Of a stretch of 64,000 nucleotides of DNA, positions 46,052 to 59,488 are shown one piece after another (position 1 is the stretch's first letter; each line of letters begins with the position of its first letter). Under the pieces are notes generated by a model. That model had not been told where the DNA came from, searched no databases, and saw only the letters and a program-made list of their open reading frames with translations. This stretch comes from Selenomonas ruminantium subsp. lactilytica TAM6421 (lineage in GTDB: Bacteria > Bacillota > Negativicutes > Selenomonadales > Selenomonadaceae), in NCBI RefSeq assembly GCF_000284095.1, contig NC_017068.1:434001-498000 (forward strand). Reading direction: 5' to 3'. The position numbers were made by a program, and so were the translations under genes.

Positions 46052-46867
46052 ATGAACGAACAGGATTTTGCGGAAACAACAGAAAACCTACAACCGAATC
46101 GAAGAAAGCGCCGCCGCAGTCCCCGCCGCATCATCAAGGGGCTGATGTTTTTAGGCATTTGCGGCGGGCTGATGTCTGTGGTCGTCTATTCGCCTCTGTT
46201 CACCCTGCAGCGGGTGACGCTTCATGGCAACACTTATCTCAGTGAGGAAGATATCCTGACCAGCGGGCGGCTCCATAAGGGGGAACCTCTCTTTCAGCTG
46301 GAGACTGATGCGGTGACGCAGAACCTGATGAAGGATCTGCGCATTGAAAGCGTTATCGTGCGGCGGAAGTTGCCGGACACCTTGGATGTGGAGCTCAAAG
46401 AACGCATGCCCGTGGCTACGGTGGCCTGCGAGTATGGCTATCTGGACCTGGACCGGCAGGGCAAGGTCATCGCCAGCTACAAGAATCTGCGCAAGATGCC
46501 CATCCCCTTGGTTACCGGTGTGGCGATGCATGATAAGTATATCGGTGACGATAACACGGATGGGAACGTGCAAAAGGTTTTGGAATTCCTGTCCCTGCTG
46601 GATGCGGAGTCCCTGAATCATCTGTCGGAAATCAACATCACCAATCCCAATGCGATTACGGCCTATACCAATCAGTCCGTGCAGATACGGCTGGGCAATT
46701 TCGACCGCTGGGAAGAAAAGGCCAAGCTCACGAAAGATTTCCTGCTGAGCCTGCCCAATGCCAGACATCAGATCGAATTCGTGGATTTCAGTTATACAGC
46801 ACCTTTTATCCGGTTGAAAGGAAATTTGACGGAATCAGAAGTTGAGGTGCATAAAGGCGCGCAGTAG
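46052..46867 (+). CDS. ftsQ: Cell division protein FtsQ/DivIB
   Basis: 271 residues; ATG at 46052 with GGCAGAG. A basic cytoplasmic N terminus (RRKRRRSPRR), one membrane segment (about 30-50), and a POTRA domain beginning FTLQRVTLHGNTYLSEEDIL (about 50-69), then the beta domain with GRLHKGEPLF and RRKLPDTLDVELKERMP. It links FtsL/FtsB with the septal synthase. Last gene of the dcw run here; no ftsA or ftsZ follows. Confidence 0.9.
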   Translation: MNEQDFAETTENLQPNRRKRRRSPRRIIKGLMFLGICGGLMSVVVYSPLFTLQRVTLHGNTYLSEEDILTSGRLHKGEPLFQLETDAVTQNLMKDLRIESVIVRRKLPDTLDVELKERMPVATVACEYGYLDLDRQGKVIASYKNLRKMPIPLVTGVAMHDKYIGDDNTDGNVQKVLEFLSLLDAESLNHLSEINITNPNAITAYTNQSVQIRLGNFDRWEEKAKLTKDFLLSLPNARHQIEFVDFSYTAPFIRLKGNLTESEVEVHKGAQ

Positions 46868-46883
46868 TTCTCTGGTTATATAG

Positions 46884-46981
46884 TTGTACGCAAAGGCCCG
46901 GAAGTTGGCAACCATTTTTTCGCTAAGATGCAAGCACTAAAAGTGGCGAAAAGCTGTTGTCAGCTTCCGGGCTTATTGCAT
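46884..46981. repeat. Long palindromic repeat, copy 2
   Basis: Arms 46896-46912 and 46956-46972 pair in 15 of 17 positions around a loop with CGCTAAGATGCAAGCAC, matching the loop pattern of copy 1 at 15336-15443, and both elements share a TTGTACGCAAA end. It separates ftsQ from the sugar locus and could act as a terminator. Confidence 0.7.
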
Positions 46982-47033
46982 GTTTCTTTAGAATGAAATT
47001 CATGTTGTACCGCCGGTCAGGGAAGAAAGCCCT

Positions 47034-47084
47034 GAAAAGATTTTCAAAACGTGAAAACACGGGGAAACAATTTTAATCTATAAT
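47034..47084 (+). promoter_or_regulatory. Operator 1 and -10 of the PTS gene
   Basis: Operator 47034-47059 reads GAAAA, 7 nt, AAAA, 3 nt, GAAAACA. TATAAT (47079-47084) follows after exactly 19 bp. There is no TTGACA-like -35; the operator covers that position. Confidence 0.65.
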
Positions 47085-47147
47085 GTAATCATAACAAGAA
47101 GAGCTTAGCAAGGGGCTCTTAGTCAGAGAGAAAGAAAGGGAATTATC

Positions 47148-48809
47148 ATGGAAAAACTCATCAAGATGGTAGAGACCATGAAGCCTTTTTTTGAAAAGGT
47201 TTCCAACAACATCTACCTGAGGGCAATCCGGGATGGCTTTGTGAGCTGCATACCGGTTATCCTGTTCTCGTCCTTATTCATCCTGGTGGCCTGTGTGCCG
47301 GAGATTTTCGACTACAAATGGCCGGAAAAGATCAGCACGGTATTGTGGCAGGCCTATAATTACAGCATGGGCATGCTGGGCATCCTGATGGTGGCAACCA
47401 TCGCCAAAAGTTTGACGGACAGCATCAATACCAAGATGCCGAAATTGCGGCAGATCAACGACGTTTCGGTTATGATCGTCTCCATCATCTGCCTGCTGCT
47501 GCTGGCAGTTGCACCTGTGGAAGGTGGGATCTCCACTGAGTTCATGGGCACCAAAGGCCTGCTTTCTGCGTTTGTGGTAGCTTTTACTGTTCCGAATATT
47601 TACAAATTTTTCGTAAAGCGCAATATTACCATTAAACTTCCGGACGAAGTTCCTCATTATATCGCCCAGACCTTTGCCGACCTCATCCCCCTGTCGGTGG
47701 CGGTCATGATCTACTGGGTATTCGGTATCGTGTTCAAGGAAGCTACGGGCATGATGTTTGGTGCCTGGATCCTGGAAGTATTCAAACCACTGTTTGTGGC
47801 AGCTGATGGTTACATCGGTTTGGCCATTATCTACGGCGCCATGGCCATGTTCTGGTTCGTAGGTATCCACGGCCCCTCCATTGTGGAACCGGCAGTGACG
47901 GCTATCTATATTGCCAACATCGAGGCAAATCTGCAGATTGTCAGTGCCGGTGGCCATGCCACGAATATCCTGACTCATCCGACCTCTTATTTTGTCGCTA
48001 CTCTGGGCGGCACGGGTGCAACTCTGATGTTCTGCGCCATGTGCGCTTTTATCGCCAAGTCCAAACAGCTGCGGGCTGTGGGCCGGGCTTCGATTGTGCC
48101 GGTCACCTTTGCGGTCAATGAACCCATTATCTTCGGTGCTCCAATCGTGTTGAATCCGGTACTGTTCTTCCCCTTTGTTTTGACACCAATCCTCAATGTC
48201 TGGGTGTTCAAATTCTTTGTCGATAATCTGGGCATGAATGCCTTCACCTATATCCTGCCCTGGACCACGCCGGCTCCTATCGGCCTGATCATCGGCACGG
48301 GCTTTGCCCAGTTGGCCTTCGTGTTGGCACCGCTGCTCCTGGTGCTGGATGCGGTTATGTACTATCCGTTCTTCCGCGTCTATGATGCCCAGCTGGTGGA
48401 AAAGGAAAAGGCTGGTGCAGCAGAGGTGGTTGTGGAAGAAGCTCCTGCTGTGGAAGCTGCTCCGGTTGTGGCTGCGGAAGAACTGCCCAGCGATGAAAAG
48501 CGCGTTCTTGTTCTCTGCGCTTCCGGTGCTACCAGCTCCATGCTGGCCAAGGCCATCACCAAAGGGGCTGAGCATCGCAATGCTCCGGTAGAATCCATTG
48601 CCATGGCCTATGGCCAGCACAAGGATGTCATCACGGACTTCGATCTGGTGGTGCTGGCTCCCCAGATGGCTTCCATGTATGACGAGCTCAAGAGCGACTG
48701 TGAAGCCAAAGGCGTCAAGAGTGCAACTACCAGCGGCCGGGAATATGTGGGACTTACCCGTGATCCGGACAAGGCGCTGGACTTTGCCCTGGCCCTGATG
48801 GCTCACTAA
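47148..48809 (+). CDS. lacE: Lactose/cellobiose-family PTS EIICB
   Basis: 553 residues; ATG at 47148 with AAAGGGA. The N-terminal EIIC part (about 1-430) has around ten membrane segments and Lac-family signatures (NIYLRAIRDGFVSCIPVILFSSLFI split over residues 22-46, FWFVGIHGPSIVEP near 236, VTFAVNEPIIFGAPIVLNP). An acidic Ala/Glu/Val linker leads to a EIIB domain with the phosphocysteine in VLVLCASGATSSML (Cys 457). It imports and phosphorylates a beta-galactoside, using the EIIA at 56388. Fused C and B domains are as in LacE. Confidence 0.9.
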   Translation: MEKLIKMVETMKPFFEKVSNNIYLRAIRDGFVSCIPVILFSSLFILVACVPEIFDYKWPEKISTVLWQAYNYSMGMLGILMVATIAKSLTDSINTKMPKLRQINDVSVMIVSIICLLLLAVAPVEGGISTEFMGTKGLLSAFVVAFTVPNIYKFFVKRNITIKLPDEVPHYIAQTFADLIPLSVAVMIYWVFGIVFKEATGMMFGAWILEVFKPLFVAADGYIGLAIIYGAMAMFWFVGIHGPSIVEPAVTAIYIANIEANLQIVSAGGHATNILTHPTSYFVATLGGTGATLMFCAMCAFIAKSKQLRAVGRASIVPVTFAVNEPIIFGAPIVLNPVLFFPFVLTPILNVWVFKFFVDNLGMNAFTYILPWTTPAPIGLIIGTGFAQLAFVLAPLLLVLDAVMYYPFFRVYDAQLVEKEKAGAAEVVVEEAPAVEAAPVVAAEELPSDEKRVLVLCASGATSSMLAKAITKGAEHRNAPVESIAMAYGQHKDVITDFDLVVLAPQMASMYDELKSDCEAKGVKSATTSGREYVGLTRDPDKALDFALALMAH

Positions 48810-48825
48810 AAAGTAGGAAATGATA

Positions 48826-48877
48826 ACTCCTGCTGCCAGTTGTGATGGCAACAGTGGCAGCAGGAGTATTTTTTTGG
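48826..48877 (+). terminator. Terminator after the PTS gene
   Basis: CTCCTGCTGCCA pairs with TGGCAGCAGGAG in a long hairpin ending in ATTTTTTTGG. Some read-through to the porin is possible. Confidence 0.85.
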
Positions 48878-48917
48878 CCATTTTTACAGAAGATTAGGAA
48901 TTTTAGGAGGAATTATC

Positions 48918-50381
48918 ATGAAGAAATCAGCTCTCATAGCAGCCGTCCTGGCAGCAACTACCATGAGCACCACGGCTTTTGCCGCCCAGAATCCCTTCAA
49001 GGATCTGCCGGAAGGACATTGGGCTTATGATGCCGTTACCATGCTGGCTGAGGATGGCGTGTTGGAAGGCTATGGCGATGGTACATTCAAGGGTGCGAAA
49101 CTGATGAACCGCTACGAGATGGCTGAGGTGGTCAGCAAGGCCCTGGCCAAATACGATACGGCCCGTCCTGCTGATAAAGGCGCCATGAAAAAGCTGGAGA
49201 AGGAATTTGCCAATGAACTGAAGGATATGGATGTACGGCTGAAGGCTGTGGAAAGCGATGTGCAGGAGCTGAAGAAGGGGGTGTCCAGCTTTAAGTGGTA
49301 TGGCGATGCCCGTCTGCGTTGGATACAAAACAAGGATATGAAAATGCATGACAAGCAGGGGACCACGAAATCTTCTCAGTTGGAAAAGCGGGTGCGGCTG
49401 GGGATTTACGGCGAACCGGCCAAAAATCTTTCCGTGGATGGCCGCATCAAATATGAAGACAGCTTCATGAAAAAAGACGGCTGGGGCGGCAAAAATCAAG
49501 CCAATTGGGATGGCAATTACGATAATCATAATTCCTTCCGTCTGGACAAAATCAGCCTGAACTGGAACCATGCAGGGACTAAAGTTTCTGTGGGCCGCAC
49601 GGAAGTAAGTCTTGGTCAGGGCCTTCTCTATTGGGAAAATCCTGTAGATGGCGGCTATGTGCAGCATCAGTTTGGCCCCAAGGTAACGGCTATGGTGGGC
49701 GTAGGGGACATTTCCGCTGCCGGCTGGCAGGATAGCAATATTGGGGCACAGTTTGCCAATATTACCGTAAAGGCCAGCCCGGCAACTACATTTACTTTTG
49801 CTAATTTGCATACGAATACAACCATGGAGACTGCAACGGTTGGTTATAAGACGGAGCAGGGCTGGACTCAGCATGATGATGGCAGCTGGCATCAGGATGG
49901 TCCCCTGACTACGACGAAGGAAACAAAATGGAATAAGGATGATTATAAACTTAATCAGTACGCTGTGGGGATGAATGCCCAGCTGGCACCTAAGTGGAAT
50001 CTTATCACAGAATATGTGCGCAATAACGCAGGTGTGCTTAAAAACAAGGATGGTATCTGGAACCGCCTGACTTATGGCAAGTTGGTATGGAATAAGGCTA
50101 ATACCTGGCATGTTTACGGCGAGCATTTCGCCTTTGGCGGTGGTGCGGTGGATTCTCTGGGCTGGCAGCACCGTTTAAACATTGCCGGTGGCAGCATGAA
50201 GAATGATGGCTTTGCCGGGGATAAAGGCGTCCGTGGCTGGGGCATGGGTGTCGGCTACATGTTGGCGGCTAACACCAATTTGGATTTGACCTATTACAGG
50301 CTGAAACCCTATGATGAAAATGCTGCCGGTTTCACGAAATATGATGATGTGGCTTATGCCGCTCTGACTTATAGCTTCTGA
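48918..50381 (+). CDS. SLH-domain outer-membrane porin, sugar-locus paralogue
   Basis: 487 residues; ATG at 48918 with TTAGGAGGA. A signal peptide ends at TAFA-A (about 23), one SLH domain follows (FKDLPEGHWAYDAVTML to NRYEMAEVVSKAL, about 28-76), then a coiled coil (about 90-125) and a beta-rich barrel region with a C-terminal aromatic (AALTYSF). Same plan as the OmpM-like protein at 10814, but the barrel is longer and different. Position between the PTS and the galactanase suggests a substrate-specific channel for galacto-oligosaccharides. Ends 13 bp before the galactanase. Confidence 0.85.
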   Translation: MKKSALIAAVLAATTMSTTAFAAQNPFKDLPEGHWAYDAVTMLAEDGVLEGYGDGTFKGAKLMNRYEMAEVVSKALAKYDTARPADKGAMKKLEKEFANELKDMDVRLKAVESDVQELKKGVSSFKWYGDARLRWIQNKDMKMHDKQGTTKSSQLEKRVRLGIYGEPAKNLSVDGRIKYEDSFMKKDGWGGKNQANWDGNYDNHNSFRLDKISLNWNHAGTKVSVGRTEVSLGQGLLYWENPVDGGYVQHQFGPKVTAMVGVGDISAAGWQDSNIGAQFANITVKASPATTFTFANLHTNTTMETATVGYKTEQGWTQHDDGSWHQDGPLTTTKETKWNKDDYKLNQYAVGMNAQLAPKWNLITEYVRNNAGVLKNKDGIWNRLTYGKLVWNKANTWHVYGEHFAFGGGAVDSLGWQHRLNIAGGSMKNDGFAGDKGVRGWGMGVGYMLAANTNLDLTYYRLKPYDENAAGFTKYDDVAYAALTYSF

Positions 50382-50394
50382 TGAGGTGACGATA

Positions 50395-52245
50395 ATGCGT
50401 AAATCAACTTTGAAATCTTTAGTTTTGGCCGCTCTGACGGCAGGTTCCCTGATGATGGCTGCGCCTGCTGATGCAGCCGTACAGGTCAATCCCATTCCCA
50501 ATCTCAGTGCCGATTTCATCAAGGGCGCTGATGTGTCCATGCTGCCGGAGCTGGAATCCTTAGGCGGCAAGTTCTACGATATGGACGGCACGGAAATGGA
50601 CGAGCTGGCCCTGATGAAGAAATACGGCATCAACTGGATCCGCGTGCGTATCTGGAATGATCCCGATCATGCCAATGGCGGCGGCTATACCACGGCGGAG
50701 CGTGCCATAGCCATGACCAAGCGGGCACATGAACTGGGCATGAAGGTGCTCATTGACTTCCATTACAGCGATTTCTGGGCGGATCCGGGCAAGCAGTGGG
50801 TGCCCAAAGCCTGGGAAAAGGACAGTGCTGGCAAGGTAGCCAAAGATGTTTACCAATACACCAAAAAGGTGCTGGGGGATTTCAAACAAGCCGGTCACCT
50901 GCCGGAAATGGTACAGGTGGGCAACGAGATCACCAATGGTATGATCTGGCCTCTGGGGAAATTGCCTGCCGACGATAATGGCAAAACATTGGCCTCCTTT
51001 GTGGCCAGCGGCCTTAAGGCAGTCCATGAGACAGACCCCAACATCAGGACCATGATCCATATTGATAAGGGCGGGGATAACGCTGCCTCCCAGAATTTCT
51101 ACAATCAGCTGATCAAGGATAACGGCGTCAATGACTTTGACATCATCGGCCTGTCCTATTATCCCTTCTGGCATGGCAATATGGATGCCATGCGGAATAA
51201 TATCAACGATCTGGCAGCCCGTTACGGCAAGGATGTTGTCATCGTGGAGACCGCTTTTGGTTACACCAACGAGAACTTTGACGACACGAAAAATGCCTAT
51301 GATGCCCAGGCTGAATATGTGGGCGGTTTCCGTTCCAGCGTGCAGGGGCAGGCCACGGGCCTTAGAACCATCATGCAGAGCCTGGCCGATGTGCCAAATG
51401 GCAAGGGCATCGGCATGTTCTACTGGGAACCGGACTGGTACGCTGTGCCGGGGGCCGGTGCCTTCAAGGATAAAGGCAATGAATGGGACAATCTCGTGAT
51501 GTTTGACAACAAGGGCAAAGCTTTGGAATCCTGGAAGGTATTCAACGATGTGAGCAATCCGTCCCTGCCCACGGTAAAGCCTGTCTTCAAGGATGTGGAT
51601 GCGGTAACCGGGGACGCCGGCAAGGGCGTGCCGGCCAAGCTGCCCGTGAAGACAAGGGTGACTTTCAGTGATGACCATACGGAAAACTTAGACATTGCCT
51701 GGGATAATCCAGCACCAGTATTCAATGAAGCTGGTGATTATACTGTCAAAGGCACAGTAACGGTGGATGGGAAGAAACATCCTGTTACAGGCCTCATCAG
51801 CGTGGTGGATAAGGTGAACCTGTTCAAGAACGGCAACTTTGAAGCCGCCCAGAATCTGGATGGCTGGACCATTACCGGAGATCAGGTGCTGAATGTGGTG
51901 ACCAAGGGCGGCGATGCTCTGGATACCAGCGCTATGCACTATTGGAGCGACAAGGCCTTCAAGTTCACCGTCAGTCAGAAATTCACGGGCCTGGCTGATG
52001 GCAAATACACGGTAGCCGTATCCACCCAGGGCGGTGGCGGTCAGAGCAAGTACCAGCTCACTGCTGTTACCAGCAGCGGCACGAAGGCCGTGGATATCAA
52101 GGATACGAAATGGAATGAATGGCATACCTTCACCATCAAAGATGTGGAGGTCAAGGACGGCGTGTGCACGATTGCCGTAACTATGGAAGCCGCCCCGGGC
52201 ACCTGGGGATCCCTGGACAATTTTGAATTCTACAAACAGAAGTGA
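50395..52245 (+). CDS. GH53 endo-beta-1,4-galactanase with C-terminal binding domain
   Basis: 616 residues from the ATG at 50395 (GAGGTGA upstream; a GTG three codons earlier lies in that site). A signal peptide ends near ADA-A (about 27). The GH53 domain spans about 40-390: GADVSMLPELESLGGKFYD, WIRVRIWNDP, DFHYSDFWADPGKQ, acid/base E178 in QVGNEITNGM and nucleophile E285 in VIVETAFGYT. A Big_4-like domain (about 400-475) and a CBM-like beta-sandwich starting NLFKNGNFEAAQNLDGW (about 478-616) follow. GH53 cuts beta-1,4-galactan of pectin side chains. The binding domain resembles galactan-binding CBM61; this is tentative. Confidence 0.9.
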   Translation: MRKSTLKSLVLAALTAGSLMMAAPADAAVQVNPIPNLSADFIKGADVSMLPELESLGGKFYDMDGTEMDELALMKKYGINWIRVRIWNDPDHANGGGYTTAERAIAMTKRAHELGMKVLIDFHYSDFWADPGKQWVPKAWEKDSAGKVAKDVYQYTKKVLGDFKQAGHLPEMVQVGNEITNGMIWPLGKLPADDNGKTLASFVASGLKAVHETDPNIRTMIHIDKGGDNAASQNFYNQLIKDNGVNDFDIIGLSYYPFWHGNMDAMRNNINDLAARYGKDVVIVETAFGYTNENFDDTKNAYDAQAEYVGGFRSSVQGQATGLRTIMQSLADVPNGKGIGMFYWEPDWYAVPGAGAFKDKGNEWDNLVMFDNKGKALESWKVFNDVSNPSLPTVKPVFKDVDAVTGDAGKGVPAKLPVKTRVTFSDDHTENLDIAWDNPAPVFNEAGDYTVKGTVTVDGKKHPVTGLISVVDKVNLFKNGNFEAAQNLDGWTITGDQVLNVVTKGGDALDTSAMHYWSDKAFKFTVSQKFTGLADGKYTVAVSTQGGGGQSKYQLTAVTSSGTKAVDIKDTKWNEWHTFTIKDVEVKDGVCTIAVTMEAAPGTWGSLDNFEFYKQK

Positions 52246-53286
<1,041 letters not shown>

Positions 53287-53304
53287 CCAAGGAAGGGATA
53301 GCTT

Positions 53305-54234
53305 ATGATACTGGTAATAAATTTGAATGCTTCACTGGACAAGCGTTATGAATTGGTGGATTTTGCCAAGGGCAAGATCGTCCGGGCAAAGTCCGTGGAC
53401 AACACTCCCGGCGGCAAGGGCATCCATGTGGCCAACGTGGATACGATCCTGGGGGAGGACACGGTGGTGACGGGGTTTTTGGGCGGCAAGACCGGGGAAT
53501 TTGTGGCTGGGCGATTATATGATTATGGCATCAGCGGGGATTTCGTGAACGTAGCCGGGGAAACCCGCTCCTGTCTGGCCATACTGACTGAAGACGGTGC
53601 CCAGACGGAAATTTTGGAGCCGGGGCCGGAGGTTAGTTCCGTGGAATTAAAAAAGTTCCGCGAAAAGTACACGGAACTTTTGGGAAAAGCGGATATTGTT
53701 GTGGCCTCCGGCAGTGTGCCCAGAGGCGTGCCAGTTGATTTTTACGCTGACTTGATTGAAGAGGCCCATGCAGCCGGGAAGAAATTCCTGCTGGATACCA
53801 GTGGCGATCTGTTGGCCAGAGGCATAGAAGCCCAGCCGGATTTTATCAAGCCCAACCGGGACGAGATTGAAGCCCTGCGGGGCTATCGCCTGCAAAGCGA
53901 AGCTGATGTGGTGAGAGAGATTCGCCATTTCCTCGAGGGAGGCATTGAGATAGCGGCCATATCCCTGGGCAGCGAAGGTTCGCTGGTGGGGGTAGGCGAT
54001 GAGATCTACCGCGTGAAAGTGCCTGCGATTGACTGCCAAAATCCCGTGGGTTCCGGGGATTCCTATGTGGCAGGCATTGCCGCAGGACTTTCCCGCAACC
54101 TTCCCATAGAGGATACGCTTCGCTTAGGTGCGGCCTGCGGGACGGCCAATGCCTTGGAGGCGGAAAGCGGCTTTGTTCGCAAGCAGATTGTTGAGGAGCT
54201 GATGCTTCGGATAGACATTGAGAAGATAGCATAG
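53305..54234 (+). CDS. lacC: Tagatose-6-phosphate / 1-phosphofructokinase family kinase
   Basis: 309 residues; ATG at 53305 with AAGGAAGGGA. PfkB-family motifs: LNASLDKRYEL (start), NTPGGKGIHVANV (about 33-45), GFLGGKTGEFV, and the C-terminal NPVGSGDSYVAGIAAGL (about 248-264), where the GSGD Asp is the catalytic base. Next to the aldolase, 18 bp downstream, the likely substrate is tagatose 6-phosphate. FruK-type activity cannot be excluded. Confidence 0.85.
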   Translation: MILVINLNASLDKRYELVDFAKGKIVRAKSVDNTPGGKGIHVANVDTILGEDTVVTGFLGGKTGEFVAGRLYDYGISGDFVNVAGETRSCLAILTEDGAQTEILEPGPEVSSVELKKFREKYTELLGKADIVVASGSVPRGVPVDFYADLIEEAHAAGKKFLLDTSGDLLARGIEAQPDFIKPNRDEIEALRGYRLQSEADVVREIRHFLEGGIEIAAISLGSEGSLVGVGDEIYRVKVPAIDCQNPVGSGDSYVAGIAAGLSRNLPIEDTLRLGAACGTANALEAESGFVRKQIVEELMLRIDIEKIA

Positions 54235-54257
54235 GCTTCGCACGTAAAAAACGTAAC

Positions 54258-55064
54258 TTAAAAATAATGTTCCCGGCGATAAGCTGCCTCTTTGCGGGCG
54301 GCTTTTTCGCGTTCTTCTTCCTCCTGCTTGGCCAGATAGTCGATGATGATGCGGCTGATGACGTAAATGGGCAGGCGGGAGGTGGCGTCTACGTTCTTGA
54401 TGGACACATGGCTGTGCTTGAAGCCGTAGGCGGTGAGGTGGGCAATGCGGGCTAAAGGTGTGTCCGGGGCGCCGCAGGTGATGGTGATGATCCTGGCGCC
54501 TAAAGAGGCGGCATTTTCGGCGGCAGTCAGAAGTTCCGGGGTTTTGCCGGACAGGCTGAAGATGATTACCAGTTCCTGATTCTTCACCCGGCGTGTCATA
54601 TCCTGCATGATGGAAGGATCGCTGTTGGCAAAGACATTATAGCCCTGCAATTGCAGCTTCAGGGAAAATTCGTCGGCCACATGCTCCGTAAGTCCACGGG
54701 AAAGAAGATAGATGCGTTTGGCCTGCCGGATTTCCCGCACCACGGCCAAAATGGTATCAATGCTCAGCTGTTCAATGGTTTGAGTTACTTCCAGCAGGCT
54801 TTTGTTGAAGATTTCGTTGACGGCAATGCTGTCTTGGTGTACCTCTGTTTCCTGGGTAATAAGGTAGCGCAGCTCCGCAAAGCCGGAAATACCGCATTTC
54901 TTGATAGTGCGGCTTACCGTGGCTGGAGAAGAATAGGTGGCTTCTGCCACATCGCTGATGGACATGGAGGAAATCTTCTCCGCATTCATATTGATGAAAC
55001 CGATGACTTTCTTCTCTGTTTCCGTCAGATGCTCGTGGAAATCATGATCGATTTTGATTAACAT
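54258..55064 (-). CDS. MurR/RpiR family transcriptional regulator
   Basis: 268 residues; ATG at 55064 with TAAGGAG. N-terminal RpiR helix-turn-helix (SISDVAEATYSSPATVSRTIKKCG, about 34-57, read in parts) and a C-terminal SIS sugar-phosphate isomerase domain (about 105-240; IYLLSRGLTEHVADEF, LVIIFSLSGKTPELL, ITITCGAPDTPLA). Regulators of this class sense phosphosugars. Convergent with the kinase gene and divergent from lacA, inside the sugar locus, it is the obvious candidate to bind the three shared operators. A minus-strand TATAAT at 55100-55105 lies next to operator 3, so it may control itself. Confidence 0.88.
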   Translation of the reverse strand: MLIKIDHDFHEHLTETEKKVIGFINMNAEKISSMSISDVAEATYSSPATVSRTIKKCGISGFAELRYLITQETEVHQDSIAVNEIFNKSLLEVTQTIEQLSIDTILAVVREIRQAKRIYLLSRGLTEHVADEFSLKLQLQGYNVFANSDPSIMQDMTRRVKNQELVIIFSLSGKTPELLTAAENAASLGARIITITCGAPDTPLARIAHLTAYGFKHSHVSIKNVDATSRLPIYVISRIIIDYLAKQEEEEREKAARKEAAYRREHYF

Positions 55065-55118
55065 GCTTTATCGCTCCTTACATAACAACACATGCTTTAA
55101 TTATACCACGGACTTGTC

Positions 55119-55169
55119 GAAAATCCTTTCAAAACATGAAAACAAATAGAAAACAAGAATGGCTATAAT
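55119..55169 (+). promoter_or_regulatory. Operator 3 and -10 of lacAB
   Basis: Operator 55119-55144 has the shared GAAAA / AAAA / GAAAACA frame and TATAAT (55164-55169) follows after 19 bp. It lies in the gap shared with the regulator gene. Confidence 0.65.
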
Positions 55170-55207
55170 GGAATCATCAACAGGAAATACAGAAAGGAAG
55201 TCAGATT

Positions 55208-55627
55208 ATGAAAGTTGCATTAGCTGCCAATGATGCTGGCGCAGAACTGAAGGAAAGCATCCAGGAATATTTGACCGGCAAAGGTTATGAGATAGAGGAT
55301 TTCTCCCATGAGGATATCTTCACGGCAACGGAAAATGTGGTGGAGGCCATTCAGAAGCAGGGAATCACCCGGGGAATCGTGATTGATGATTATGGTGTGG
55401 CACCTTTTATGATTGCCGCCAAGCATCATGGGATTGTCTGTGCACCGACTTATGAGGATTATACGTCCTCCATGACCCGCCGCCATAACAGTACCCAGAT
55501 CATTACCCTGGGAGCAAAAGTAACGGCAGAAGATCTTTCCTGCCGGCTGGCGGAAAATTTTGTCAAGACGGAATACGATGGCGGCCGTCATCAGATTCGT
55601 ATTGACATGCTGAACCGGGAACTTTGA
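55208..55627 (+). CDS. lacA: Galactose-6-phosphate isomerase subunit LacA
   Basis: 139 residues; ATG at 55208 with GAAAGGAAG. RpiB/LacAB fold: [20 protein letters not shown] (start) and [20 protein letters not shown] (about 58-77), with the [12 protein letters not shown] segment. LacA pairs with LacB to convert galactose 6-phosphate to tagatose 6-phosphate. Stops 13 bp before lacB. Confidence 0.88.
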
Positions 55628-55640
55628 GGGAGGAAAAAAC

Positions 55641-56156
55641 ATGAGAATTGCGATTGGCTGTGACCATATTGTTACGGATATCAAGATCAAGGCAGCAGAG
55701 TTTTTGAAGAAGCAGGGCCATGAGGTCATCGATGTGGGAACCTATGATTTTATCCGCACCCATTATCCGATTTACGGCCGCAAGGTGGGCAAGCTGGTGG
55801 CCACGGGAGAAGCGGATTTAGGCGTTTGCATCTGTGGCACCGGCATCGGCATCAACAACGCTGCGCAAAAAGTGAAGGGCGTACGGGCTGCCTGTGTGGC
55901 GGATGTGCAGACGGCCGTTGCGGCCAAAGAAAATCTCAATGCCAATGTGATTGGATGCGGAGGCAGAGTCATTGGGATCGGCTCCATTGAATATATATTG
56001 GAGGCGTTTTTGCAGGCAGAGTATAAGGCTACGCCGGAAAAGGATGCTTTGATTGCGAAGATTGATGCTCTTGTCCCGGAAAATGACTGCATTGAGAATG
56101 ACGGGCTTTTTGATGAATATCTGCAAAAGTGGGATGAGGGTTACTACCATGATTGA
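55641..56156 (+). CDS. lacB: Galactose-6-phosphate isomerase subunit LacB
   Basis: 171 residues; ATG at 55641 with GAGGGAGG. RpiB-like signatures: [20 protein letters not shown] (start), [37 protein letters not shown] (about 62-78, catalytic Cys region) and [20 protein letters not shown]. Length 171 is the LacB standard. Confidence 0.93.
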
Positions 56157-56186
56157 TATGGTGGTATAATTAAGCTTAGTTAGCTG

Positions 56187-56355
56187 GCTTACTTTTCTTT
56201 GGCGCAAAGAAAAGTAACAAAAGAAAACAGCGGCTAAAAATCCCATCACGGGATTTAAAGCCGCCTGCGCCCGTCCTTGGGCGCCGGGCAACGATAATGC
56301 TTTATTTTTTGCTTCCAAGTGCCCGGCAGGGCGAAAGGGGCGTTTTTCAGCGTAT
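56187..56355. repeat. Chain of four hairpins with a TTACTTTTCTTTG palindrome
   Basis: A perfect 13-bp stem (56189-56201 with 56205-56217, loop GCG) is followed by a GCGGCT/AGCCGC hairpin enclosing ATCCC/GGGAT, a GCGCCC/GGGCGC hairpin, and a GCCGGGCA/TGCCCGGC hairpin. The first stem and the CAAAAGAAAA tail look like an intergenic repeat I know from many bacterial genomes. It stands between lacB and the EIIA gene. Confidence 0.75.
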
Positions 56356-56387
56356 TGGTGTAATTGATTGGAAAAGGTGTGATATTT

Positions 56388-56705
56388 ATGTCTATGACAA
56401 AAGATGAAATGGCTATGATTGCGATGGAGATTGTGGCTTATGCGGGGGATGCGCGGACTAAGTTTTTGGCGGCTATGGATGCCATTGGGGAGAAGGATTT
56501 TGCCAAGGCAGAAGCGCTGATCAAAGAGGGGGATGATCTGATCCTGAATGCCCATAATCAGCAGACGGAACTGATTACGAAGGAGGCTGCCGGGGAGGAG
56601 ATTGAGATTGGCTTCCTGACGGTGCATGCTCAGGACCATCTGATGACGGCGATGCTGCTGTCGGATATGGACAAGCGGTTCCTCAAGATGTTCCGGGAGA
56701 AATGA
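56388..56705 (+). CDS. lacF: Lactose/cellobiose-family PTS EIIA
   Basis: 105 residues from the ATG at 56388 (AAAAGGTG upstream); the TTG-type start at 56364 adds an unneeded tail. All-helical EIIA: DEMAMIAMEIVAYAGDAR, AKFLAAMD-like helix, ILNAHNQQTELITKEAAG and the phosphoryl His 80 in VHAQDHLMTAML. It passes phosphate from HPr to the EIIB domain at 47148. Ten bases before lacG. Confidence 0.92.
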   Translation: MSMTKDEMAMIAMEIVAYAGDARTKFLAAMDAIGEKDFAKAEALIKEGDDLILNAHNQQTELITKEAAGEEIEIGFLTVHAQDHLMTAMLLSDMDKRFLKMFREK

Positions 56706-56714
56706 GGGTTGGTT

Positions 56715-58133
56715 ATGGCAAAGAAATTTCCAGCTAATTTTATCTTTGGCGGGGCCACGGCAGCTTATCAGGTGGAGGGAGCCACCCGGGAGGATGGGCG
56801 GGGGCCCTGTGTCTGGGACGAGTATATGAACCGTCCCGGGGCGCGGTTCAATGCGGACCCGGCTTCGGATTTCTATCATCAGTACAAGCAGGATCTGCAG
56901 CTGGCCCATGATTTCCATATCAATGGTATCCGTATTTCCTTGTCCTGGACACGGATTTTGCCGACAGGTGAAGGCAAGGTCAATCAGGCGGGCATTGATT
57001 ACTACAATCAGCTCATTGACGAGTGCATCAGACAGGGCGTAGAGCCCTTTGTGACACTGCATCATTTTGATACACCCCTTGCCTATTTTCAAAATGGTCA
57101 TTGGCTGAATCGGGACTTGATCGATAAATTCACAGCCTATGCTAAGATTTGCTTTGAGGCTTTCGGCGACCGTGTCAAGAAATGGGCAACTTTCAATGAG
57201 CCTTGGTCCATTGCTCAGAATGGTTATCTGGCAGGTAACTTTCCCCCTAACGAGACCTTCCAGATCACGAAGGCCATCCAGATCGAGCATAATCTGATGG
57301 TAGCCCATGCCCGGGCTTTGAATCTCTACAAGAGCATGAACCTGCCGGGGCGTATCGGCATCGTGCATACGTTGGAGGGCAAGGTGGCCATTTCGGACAC
57401 GCCGGAGAATAATCACGCCCGGGATCTGGATGATGCCATCTCCAACCGGTTTATGCTGGATGCCTGCTATTTGGGCAAATACAGTGATACGACGATGGCA
57501 CTGATTCATGAGATCCTGCAGAAAAATGGCGGTGAGCTGATTACGGAACCACAGGATTTTGAGGATTTTGCCAAGGCTGCCGCACAGATTGATTTCTTAG
57601 GCATGAACTACTATTCCAGTCATTTCCTGCAGGCCTATGAGGGCGAAAGTCAGGTGGTGAACAACAGTACCGGTGAAAAGGGTACCAGCGTGTTCTGTCT
57701 GAAGGGGATTGGGGCCCGGGTCAGCAATCCGGAAGTTCCTACCACAGATTGGGACTGGCCCATTTATCCTGAAGGGATGTATCGCCAGCTGAAGCGTATT
57801 GCCCGGGATTATCCTAATTATAAGGAAATTTTCATTTCCGAAAATGGCATGGGTTATAAGGATGATTTTGTGGATGGTGAAGTCGATGATACCCCCCGCA
57901 TCGAATATGTTGCCAAACATCTGGAGGCCATTTTGCAGGCCATTGCAGAAGGTGTGCATGTTGGTGGTTACTATATCTGGAGCCTGATGGATGTACTTTC
58001 CTGGAGCAATGGCTATAACAAACGCTATGGTCTCTTTTATGTGGACTATGAAACACAGAAGCGCTATCCCAAGAAAAGTGCTTATTGGTATAAGAAAATG
58101 GCGGCTGCCAAAGAACTGCTGCCTCCGTTATGA
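56715..58133 (+). CDS. lacG: 6-phospho-beta-galactosidase (GH1)
   Basis: 472 residues from the ATG at 56715; TTG at 56709 is the alternative. GH1 motifs: FIFGGATAAYQVEGA (about 8-22), LSWTRILPTGEG, acid/base E162 in FNEPWS and nucleophile E376 in ISENGMG. Length and residue spacing fit LacG. It cleaves the imported 6-phospho-beta-galactoside to galactose 6-phosphate, feeding LacAB. A broader 6-phospho-beta-glycosidase activity is possible. Confidence 0.9.
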   Translation: MAKKFPANFIFGGATAAYQVEGATREDGRGPCVWDEYMNRPGARFNADPASDFYHQYKQDLQLAHDFHINGIRISLSWTRILPTGEGKVNQAGIDYYNQLIDECIRQGVEPFVTLHHFDTPLAYFQNGHWLNRDLIDKFTAYAKICFEAFGDRVKKWATFNEPWSIAQNGYLAGNFPPNETFQITKAIQIEHNLMVAHARALNLYKSMNLPGRIGIVHTLEGKVAISDTPENNHARDLDDAISNRFMLDACYLGKYSDTTMALIHEILQKNGGELITEPQDFEDFAKAAAQIDFLGMNYYSSHFLQAYEGESQVVNNSTGEKGTSVFCLKGIGARVSNPEVPTTDWDWPIYPEGMYRQLKRIARDYPNYKEIFISENGMGYKDDFVDGEVDDTPRIEYVAKHLEAILQAIAEGVHVGGYYIWSLMDVLSWSNGYNKRYGLFYVDYETQKRYPKKSAYWYKKMAAAKELLPPL

Positions 58134-58152
58134 ACGTGTTCTTCCCCCGGAT

Positions 58153-58181
58153 AAAACGCCCCGTTGCAGGGGCGTTTTGGC
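58153..58181. terminator. Terminator after lacG
   Basis: A perfect 10-bp stem (AAAACGCCCC with GGGGCGTTTT) around GTTGCA. Confidence 0.85.
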
Positions 58182-58275
58182 TTGTATCCAAACACAGATT
58201 TTCGTTTTTTTGTAATTTTTTTTTGAAACTTATAGCATTATGGGCAGATAAATGGTAGAATTAAGGAGTATATTT

Positions 58276-58347
58276 GTGTGGACTAGGAATCCCAGTGGAC
58301 GAAATACCGTTTGCCAGGGATGTAGAATAGAACATCATGGGGGTTAA
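58276..58347 (+). CDS. Possible 23-codon upstream ORF coupled to ftsZ
   Basis: AAGGAG lies 7 bp before a GTG at 58276, a better ribosome site than that of ftsZ itself. The frame runs 23 codons, ends TAA at 58345-58347 and contains a CxxC (residues 13-16). Its stop lies between the two candidate ftsZ starts (ATG 58337, GTG 58352), in another frame, which would allow translational coupling. It may be chance. Confidence 0.35.
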
Positions 58348-58351
58348 CGCT

Positions 58352-59488
58352 GTGTTTGAATTGGATGATAACGGCCTCGATCAGGTGGCCAAAATTAAGG
58401 TAATCGGTGTAGGCGGCGGCGGCAGCAATGCTGTCAACCGCATGATAAACTTCGGACTGCAGGGAGTCGAATTTATCGCTGTGAATACGGATGCGCAGGC
58501 GCTGTTGAAGTCTTTGGCTCCGAAGCGCATGCAGATTGGCGAGAAGCTCACCAGGGGATTGGGTGCAGGCGCTCGTCCGGAAATCGGCCAGAAAGCGGCT
58601 GAGGAAAGCCGCGATGATATTCTCGAAGCTCTGCGTGGTGCAGATATGGTCTTCGTTACCGCTGGCATGGGGGGCGGCACTGGTACTGGTGCTGCGCCGG
58701 TGGTTGCTGAATGTGCCCGGGAAATCGGTGCACTGACCGTAGGTGTTGTCACCCGTCCTTTCGGCTTCGAGGGCAAGAAGCGTGAGCGCAATGCCGAAGC
58801 AGGTATTGCCAACCTGAAGCAGCACGTGGATACCATCATTACCATTCCCAATGACCGCCTGATGCAGGTGGTGGACAAGAAGACGCCGATCACGCAGGCC
58901 TTCAGCATTGCCGATGACGTATTGCGTCAGGGTGTCAAAGGTATTTCCGACCTGATTGCTCTGCCTGGCCTGGTCAACCTGGACTTTGCTGATGTGAAGA
59001 GCATCATGAGCAACGCCGGTTCTGCCCTCATGGGTATCGGTGAGGCTACGGGTGAAGGTGCAGCTATCGCTGCTACTAAGATGGCCATTGAATCGCCGTT
59101 GCTGGAAACCAGCATCGACGGTGCCCGTGGTATCCTGCTGAACGTGACTGGTGCTGAAGACAACCTCAGCATGTACGAGATTCAGGAAGCTTCTGAAACC
59201 ATCCATGAAGCAGCCGATGATCAGGCAAACATCATCTGGGGTGCATCTGTGGACAACACTATGGGCGATACCGTCCGGGTTACGGTTATTGCTACGGGCT
59301 TCGATATGCCGGAAACCATCGGGGTACAGCCCCAGGCCGTACCTTCGGCCGCTCAGCCGGTACAGCCGAACCTGAACCTCAATATGGGGATGCCGGGAGC
59401 AGCACCGGCTGCACCGATAGAACAGCAGCAGACGGTAGCGCCAGCTGCTGATTTCATCGACATTCCCGTGTGGATGCAGAAAAAATAA
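58352..59488 (+). CDS. ftsZ: Cell division protein FtsZ
   Basis: 378 residues from a GTG at 58352, preceded by GGGGGT; an ATG at 58337 would give 383 residues but lacks a ribosome site. Tubulin-fold motifs: [17 protein letters not shown] (about 15-31), [16 protein letters not shown] (about 106-121, the GTP-binding signature), [11 protein letters not shown] and NDRLMQV. An unstructured Pro/Ala/Gln linker (about 325-365) leads to the conserved C-terminal peptide [12 protein letters not shown]. It forms the division ring. It lies 11.5 kb from ftsQ, with the sugar locus between, and has no ftsA beside it. Confidence 0.97.

Follow-up and report, generated by a model that had tools for sequence, protein, structure and literature searches.

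A 26-bp operator placed 19 bp before the -10 element marks a putative RpiR-controlled galactan-lactose regulon in Selenomonas ruminantium

Results

Three operators in the galactan/lactose cluster

The stretch of DNA analyzed here, called the window in the following, comprises 64 kb of the genome of Selenomonas ruminantium subsp. lactilytica TAM6421 (NC_017068.1, positions 434,001 to 498,000) and contains a galactan/lactose gene cluster (Table 1) in which an RpiR-type regulator is encoded on the minus strand, between transcription units two and three. An earlier sequence-only reading had described three sites of the form GAAAA-N7-AAAA-N3-GAAAACA in this cluster, each located 19 bp before a perfect -10 hexamer. 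All three matches were recovered with zero mismatches, and the gap between operator and TATAAT is exactly 19 bp at each of them. With up to two mismatches allowed, the window holds five matches compared to 0.04 expected from shuffled sequences. In the 3.63-Mb S. ruminantium genome, the exact motif occurs three times, always inside the cluster. When up to two mismatches were permitted, 21 places were found genome-wide as compared to 10 for the reversed control, and only the exact sites stand out. The genome scan for the motif with this spacing, which had been proposed as a check, returned the same three sites only, even with up to three mismatches over motif and -10 element.

Table 1. Features of the cluster in window coordinates, with the basis of each assignment (scores and cut-offs in bits)
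Feature	Position	Strand	Basis and remarks
Operator 1 (palindrome 47034-47045, half-site GAAAACA 47053-47059)	47034-47059	+	Sequence match; before lactose phosphotransferase system (PTS) gene
-10 TATAAT of operator 1 promoter	47079-47084	+	19 bp downstream of operator 1
lacE-type PTS IICB, lactose family	47148-48809	+	TIGR00410 247 (cut-off 236); lactose-specific TIGR00394 574, below cut-off 614
SLH-domain porin-like protein	48918-50381	+	PF00395; por_somb 45, below cut-off 100
GH53 endo-beta-1,4-galactanase	50386-52245	+	PF07745, 387
Operator 2	52333-52358	+	Sequence match; before aldolase-kinase genes
-10 TATAAT of operator 2 promoter	52378-52383	+	Sequence
Tagatose-bisphosphate aldolase, gatY-like	52432-53286	+	TIGR01858 465, above cut-off
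Hexose kinase; tagatose-6-phosphate kinase by context	53305-54234	+	TIGR03168 above cut-off; lacC TIGR01231 236, below cut-off 410
RpiR-type regulator, HTH_6 + SIS	54258-55064	-	PF01418 49.6 (cut-off 28.3); PF01380 67.2 (cut-off 25)
Predicted rpiR -10 with extended TGG	55100-55105	-	Sequence; operator starts 13 bp upstream of this -10
Operator 3	55119-55144	+	Sequence match; between rpiR and lacA
-10 TATAAT of operator 3 promoter	55164-55169	+	Sequence
lacA, galactose-6-phosphate isomerase subunit by context	55208-55627	+	TIGR00689 above cut-off; LacA models below cut-off
lacB, galactose-6-phosphate isomerase subunit	55641-56156	+	NF006381 262 (cut-off 234); TIGR01119 below cut-off
lacF-type PTS IIA, without own operator	56388-56705	+	PF02255 above cut-off; TIGR00823 112, below cut-off 137
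lacG, 6-phospho-beta-galactosidase	56709-58133	+	TIGR01233 642, above cut-off

Conservation of the operator and its spacing

Two genome sets were searched, 151 genomes of the family and 380 of the class, with a refined 26-mer pattern, GAAAA-N3-TTYC-ARA-N4-GAAAACM (genomes are denoted by G, fetched loci by L). Of the 151 family genomes, 30 contain the bare 26-mer, with 72 occurrences in total, and none contains its reversed control. TATAMT, i.e. TATAAT or TATACT, follows exactly 19 bp downstream at 71 of these 72 sites and class-wide at 73 of 75. The family sites represent 40 distinct 26-mers and 57 distinct spacers. Information content was determined for 22 spacer-distinct representatives. These were obtained by single-link clustering of 59 spacers, and their independence by descent is incomplete; two of 68 distinct sites, in G059 and one of two in G314, have no -10 at 19 bp and were excluded. 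With TATAAT taken as -12 to -7, the inner 17 spacer positions (-30 to -14) carry only 0.03-0.35 bits, the outermost positions -31 and -13 carry 0.78 and 0.62 bits, and spacers of different clusters are 28% identical. The letters of the motif are near-invariant among the representatives, partly since the pattern selected for them. The centre of the palindromic left part is free, with 11 different dinucleotides in the 72 sites. Matches with three to five mismatches in low-scoring rows resemble chance and were not used.

The absence of a -35 element, as judged from the sequence and as stated before, was likewise found: in none of the 22 representatives do three or more positions agree with TTGACA at a spacer of 16-18 bp, and the TG of an extended -10 is absent from all of them. 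As the letters GAAAACA are fixed by the motif, the -35 depletion counts as one fact and not as 22. On its opposite side, the operator faces rpiR, whose -10 was picked mechanically as the most TATAAT-like hexamer of the intervening DNA. In 13 loci, this hexamer was found at distances ranging from 8 to 87 bp from the left edge of the operator, and nine of these loci have an extended TG. A fixed spacing of the operator is thus seen on the lacA side alone. Where the two are close, as in the window, operator binding may also repress rpiR.

A chance origin of the sites was rejected on the basis of the shuffle expectation, the genome scan and the reversed control, which had no match in any genome of the family and class searches. 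An alternative sigma factor was likewise discarded, the -10 element being TATAAT at 53 and TATACT at 18 of the 72 sites.

Genes downstream of the operator

To identify the targets, the DNA downstream of every site (for the three sites of the window, taken from the window) was searched with the cluster genes, ddl, ftsQ, ftsZ, galKET and two relatives. At 70 of the 72 family sites, which thus precede genes of galactan, lactose or galactose use, the closest match to a cluster gene or to galKET starts 76-303 bp from the start of the site. This match is lacE in 23 cases, lacA in 20, gatY in 13, a GH1 gene preceding gatY in nine, a gene for a GH53-C-terminal-like protein before galK in two, and galK, the porin gene and the GH53 gene in one case each. 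Of the two remaining sites, one lies at a contig end and the other before an apparent porin remnant. An occurrence of the motif before unrelated constitutive genes, which would speak against a regulon, was not seen.

The gal operons of G093, G114 and G003 carry the site. Neighbours of the G093 site include an apparently DeoR-like gene and a small gene resembling PTS IIA (L108:15201-15965). In some genomes (e.g. L050:12771-14171), the additional GH1 gene between operator and gatY is 37-46% like lacG.

Co-occurrence of the operator and the RpiR-type regulator

Orthologs of the window RpiR with at least 61% identity are present in 27 of the 151 family genomes, 26 of which have the strict promoter; in the 27th (G076), the promoter is present with one mismatch. 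None of eleven family genomes with only a 43-49% identical RpiR relative has the strict promoter. Four class genomes from other families encode an RpiR with 57-61% identity, and three of these hold the strict motif. TATAAT is found at 19 bp in G243 and G318. In G314, a second site with one mismatch has TATAAT at 19 bp. The strict operator of G314 (L197:9803) sits before rpiR itself and is perhaps autoregulatory. G224 has GGAAACA exactly 19 bp before TATAAT, with the left palindrome 1 bp farther off.

Over the 380 class genomes, 29 have both site and RpiR (at least 57% identity), four the site only, two RpiR only and 345 neither (Fisher p 8e-37, relatedness ignored); both RpiR-only genomes hold a near-match ending in GGAAACA at 19 bp. 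The LacI-type regulator GalR was detected in 77 of the 151 family genomes (E 1e-30), including all 22 genomes of the genus, five of which are without the site, and was not found in G094 and G100, both site carriers. The site thus tracks RpiR orthologs far better than GalR, the sole other candidate tested, and this distribution supports the earlier suggestion that the RpiR-type protein is the simplest candidate for the regulator.

Two site-only genomes may lack the regulator because of an assembly gap. In G132 (82% complete), the site is located 199 bp from a contig end; in G042, the contig stops inside the kinase gene and the best LacB match is 42%, the genome being listed as 100% complete. 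G059 (82% complete) has the only family site without a -10, located before an apparently truncated porin gene with a likewise shortened GH53 gene close by; no RpiR ortholog was found in it, which reads as decay after regulator loss. A three-mismatch site before its GH53 remnant retains TATAAT, and a one-mismatch site (L158), with no recognised regulon gene downstream, is taken as chance. G049, which is not among the RpiR ortholog holders, has a one-mismatch site, outside the strict count, before an apparent lacA-lacG-kinase remnant with internal deletions. In L157 and L125, apparently decayed galactan/lactose loci of G049 and G059, genes for lacA, lacG, kinase, porin and GH53 read as truncated, and the operators next to them have either survived or been damaged.

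A paralogous RpiR clade

The RpiR proteins with 43-49% identity (L063, L067-L077, L199-L203) adjoin gatY/kinase genes or an apparent PTS gene. Their operators read GAAAAGATTTTC or GGAAAGATTTTC, with the first seven bases located 19 bp before a -10-like hexamer. This hexamer is TATAAT, TATGAT or TATATT (up to one mismatch) in 10 of 17 loci and TACCAT, TAAGAT, CATTAT or GATTAT (two mismatches) in the other seven; 19 bp is the best -10 position in 14 of the 17. The 17 loci include near-identical pairs; L071, where the match lies inside a gene, and opposite-strand readings in L075 and L076 were excluded. The search pattern required GA at the palindrome centre, so that this centre is no finding. 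A core TTTTC-N7-GAAAA, centred near -42, is common to several members of both RpiR groups. The window group has the left palindrome and, on the right, a half-site; in the paralogous group the right palindrome is complete.

Discussion

Proposed mechanism

We consider it probable, on sequence evidence, that the three promoters form one regulon run by the RpiR-type protein encoded among them, which would activate transcription in place of a -35 element. This reading is supported by the fixed operator distance, the genes downstream, the co-occurrence with the regulator, the decayed G059 site, the 12-bp span common to the SpNanR site (see below), the equal register in the paralogous clade and, as an internal control, the variable distance to the -10 of rpiR. 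Fixed spacing and a missing -35, the latter judged by sequence, are also features of class II activators, whose operators overlap or replace the -35. Two RpiR dimers, together a tetramer, are proposed to sit side by side on the DNA. The first would occupy the 12-bp palindrome GAAAA-N3-TTYC at -57 to -46, and one subunit of the second would bind the half-site GAAAACA (-38 to -32) at the place normally taken by the -35 hexamer. Because a -35 and an extended -10 are both missing from these promoters, RNA polymerase would depend on the bound protein, which may offer sigma region 4, the alpha C-terminal domain or both an alternative contact. The signal could be a phosphorylated sugar of the tagatose-6-phosphate route, e.g. 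galactose 6-phosphate, bound by the SIS domain.

Several observations weigh against this mechanism. The right half-site of the window clade has no TTTTC partner, so that a second dimer at this place belongs to the model. The palindrome itself is imperfect: position 8 is T (GAAAA-N2-TTTYC) in 51 of the 72 sites, and operator 3 of the window is among those that depart from it there. The best -10 is at 19 bp for 63 of the 68 distinct sites in the fetched loci and not for all; at three sites, the TATACT at 19 bp is overlapped by a perfect TATAAT at 24 bp, and the strict site of G314 lacks a good -10 at the 19-bp distance. Control TATAAT hexamers from the same loci are themselves only modestly enriched for a -35 (15 of 83 with at least four matches, 11 expected); therefore a missing -35 alone proves little. 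Finally, G093 (99% complete) has a perfect site before galKET (L108:10609) while no RpiR ortholog was found, the best match having 19-23% identity; LacB was not found either (best match 38%). This case is the most serious exception: the promoter may be a relic of recent date, or else some other protein is able to act on the site.

Alternative explanations

The same sites could be read as operators of a repressor, the role of many RpiR proteins studied so far; RpiR would then block the -35 region and leave it in response to a sugar phosphate. The operator does cover this region, a -35 as poor as that seen here also fits a weak repressed promoter, and the G093 galKET site without RpiR fits a promoter that needs no activator; the latter two points tell against activation. 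According to a preprint on SpNanR of Streptococcus pneumoniae, all RpiR regulators described before it were repressors (PMC12713135), which is contradicted by the papers on GlaR and ClaR (PMC6528599, PMC4286628). Moreover, a repressor requires no fixed distance to the -10, yet the distance is kept at all but one of the 72 family sites. Without a bound protein, the promoters would have neither a -35 nor an extended -10, whereas the predicted promoter of rpiR is mostly extended and lies at a variable distance. We therefore regard repression as unlikely.

Regulators other than RpiR were also considered, chiefly GalR, the LacI-type protein with its gene behind galT, or a CcpA-like protein acting on operators that resemble the catabolite-responsive element (cre). 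When compared with the cre consensus, GAAAA-N2-TTTTC equals the cre core minus the central CG. A Lactococcus version of cre is also quoted in the literature. The GalR gene follows galT in G093 and G114, whose gal operons carry the site, and GalR could still account for G093. As described above, however, the distribution of GalR does not track the site, with five genomes of the genus having GalR without site and G094 and G100 showing the opposite, and CG is found at the centre of only two of the 72 sites. A regulator of this kind is thus very improbable. Least credible of all is that the motif is an UP element, whose A-tracts would be contacted by the alpha C-terminal domain without any specific regulator. 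UP elements are located at -59 to -38, nearly in register with the motif. The UP element consensus AAAWWTWTTTTNNNAAA also resembles it (PMC2412878). Against this, G or C at -57, -46, -38 and -33 is invariant in the representatives (in part owing to the pattern), and AT-rich elements would not keep such letters; furthermore, there are only three sites in 3.63 Mb, nearly all family sites precede galactan, lactose or galactose genes, and their presence follows the RpiR orthologs. The alpha subunit may still touch the A-tracts beside a bound protein.

Comparison with known activators

The closest parallel to the proposed RpiR activation is SpNanR, an RpiR activator that binds TCTGAAAGTACTTTTAGA as a dimer and whose effector stabilises a tetramer; its authors hypothesize that the tetramer occupies the full palindrome together with a degenerate downstream half-palindrome (PMC12713135). 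The SpNanR core GAAA-N4-TTT(C), from G4 to T15, spans 12 bp, the same as GAAAA-N3-TTYC here. Key recognition-helix residues that contact the DNA are conserved: Thr18, Ser50, Arg56 and Lys59 of SpNanR align with T14, S46, R52 and K55 of the window RpiR, and Thr55 with S51. The minor-groove residue Arg67 is Ala63 in the window RpiR and Ala or Ser in close relatives, which adds to the points against the proposed mechanism. In SpNanR, Arg67 enters the minor groove at the centre of the site, and altering the TA step there abolished binding (PMC12713135); the loss of this arginine fits the free palindrome centre found here, as a correlation only. The structure PDB 8tx9 was taken to be that of SpNanR because its residue numbers match the paper. 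The placement differs between the two systems. The SpNanR site precedes an existing -35 by about 55 bp, and the degenerate half-palindrome follows this site after about 23 bp (PMC12713135), whereas here the half-site is near-invariant, starts 19 bp from the palindrome start and is located at the -35 itself. The effector pathway differs as well.

Two RpiR activators of Lactococcus lactis are comparable in function. GlaR (YugA) activates galactose/lactose genes, and its lacS promoter has a perfect -10 without a consensus -35; unlike here, its gene adjoins the Leloir/lacS operon, and the accessible text mentions no operator motif, tagatose-6-phosphate or galactan genes (PMC6528599). ClaR activates PTS-based disaccharide use and is reported to depend on a sugar phosphate, but it acts on a cellobiose-lactose PTS, and no operator geometry is described in the text available (PMC4286628). 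As for the mechanism, Mor of phage Mu binds as a dimer to an inverted repeat with its centre at -43.5 and takes over the role of the -35 in a -10-only promoter (PMC4390567); this likeness concerns the mechanism only, and no protein relationship is claimed. No paper combining RpiR and Selenomonas was found, in a literature collection lacking most subscription papers.

RpiR activators (SpNanR, GlaR, ClaR) and the replacement of a -35 by an activator (Mor) are therefore already known, and what would be new here is the promoter-proximal placement. Whether the RpiR clade of this class is a dedicated -35 surrogate appears to us an evenly balanced question. In its favour, the half-site is fixed relative to the -10 in two paralogous groups (galactan/lactose and gatY-kinase/PTS) and in several families, and the arginine loss matches the free centre in the galactan/lactose group; the mode would then be distinct from the distal one of SpNanR. 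With respect to how RpiR proteins activate, the SpNanR preprint puts forward the hypothesis that a tetramer spans a palindrome and a half-site close to the polymerase (PMC12713135). Such an arrangement is evolutionarily fixed here in many promoters, at a position where polymerase contact is likely, and natural variants are at hand: the 1-bp shift of the left palindrome in L196, the full right palindrome of the paralogous clade and the lost -10 in G059. The data thereby propose a galactan-lactose regulon for rumen Selenomonas.

Additional features of the cluster

The names lactose IIC, tagatose-6-phosphate kinase, LacA and lactose IIA were assigned from context because the specific models scored below cut-off. 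The lac/tagatose operons of Gram-positive cocci are controlled by LacR, a member of the DeoR family. When the 10 genes between and including lacE and lacG were scanned against Pfam, a single regulator was obtained, the HTH_6/SIS protein, and none of the DeoR family.

As the sequence-only reading had noted, lacF-lacG have no operator. Both genes are co-directional with the preceding lacA-lacB; lacB and lacF are separated by 234 bp in the window compared to 42-143 bp in 17 relatives measured, and no terminator-like hit is listed in the gap of the window. On account of this co-direction and the lack of a terminator-like hit, lacF-lacG probably need no operator of their own. The gap (56157-56387) appears repeat-like by eye, and no copies of at least 40 bp were found elsewhere in the window.

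No match to ddl, ftsQ or ftsZ was obtained in any of 39 loci compared (8-21 kb each). In the window, the island from 46052 to 59488 is flanked by an ftsQ-like gene and ftsZ, within a mur/dcw cell-wall cluster (names from reading the open reading frames). In L062, L195 and L196, aldolase and kinase genes are located between lacB and lacF. In L195, which belongs to another family, a single site is followed by lacA-lacB-gatY-kinase-lacF-lacE-lacG-porin-GH53, a gene row that reads as if it were one operon.

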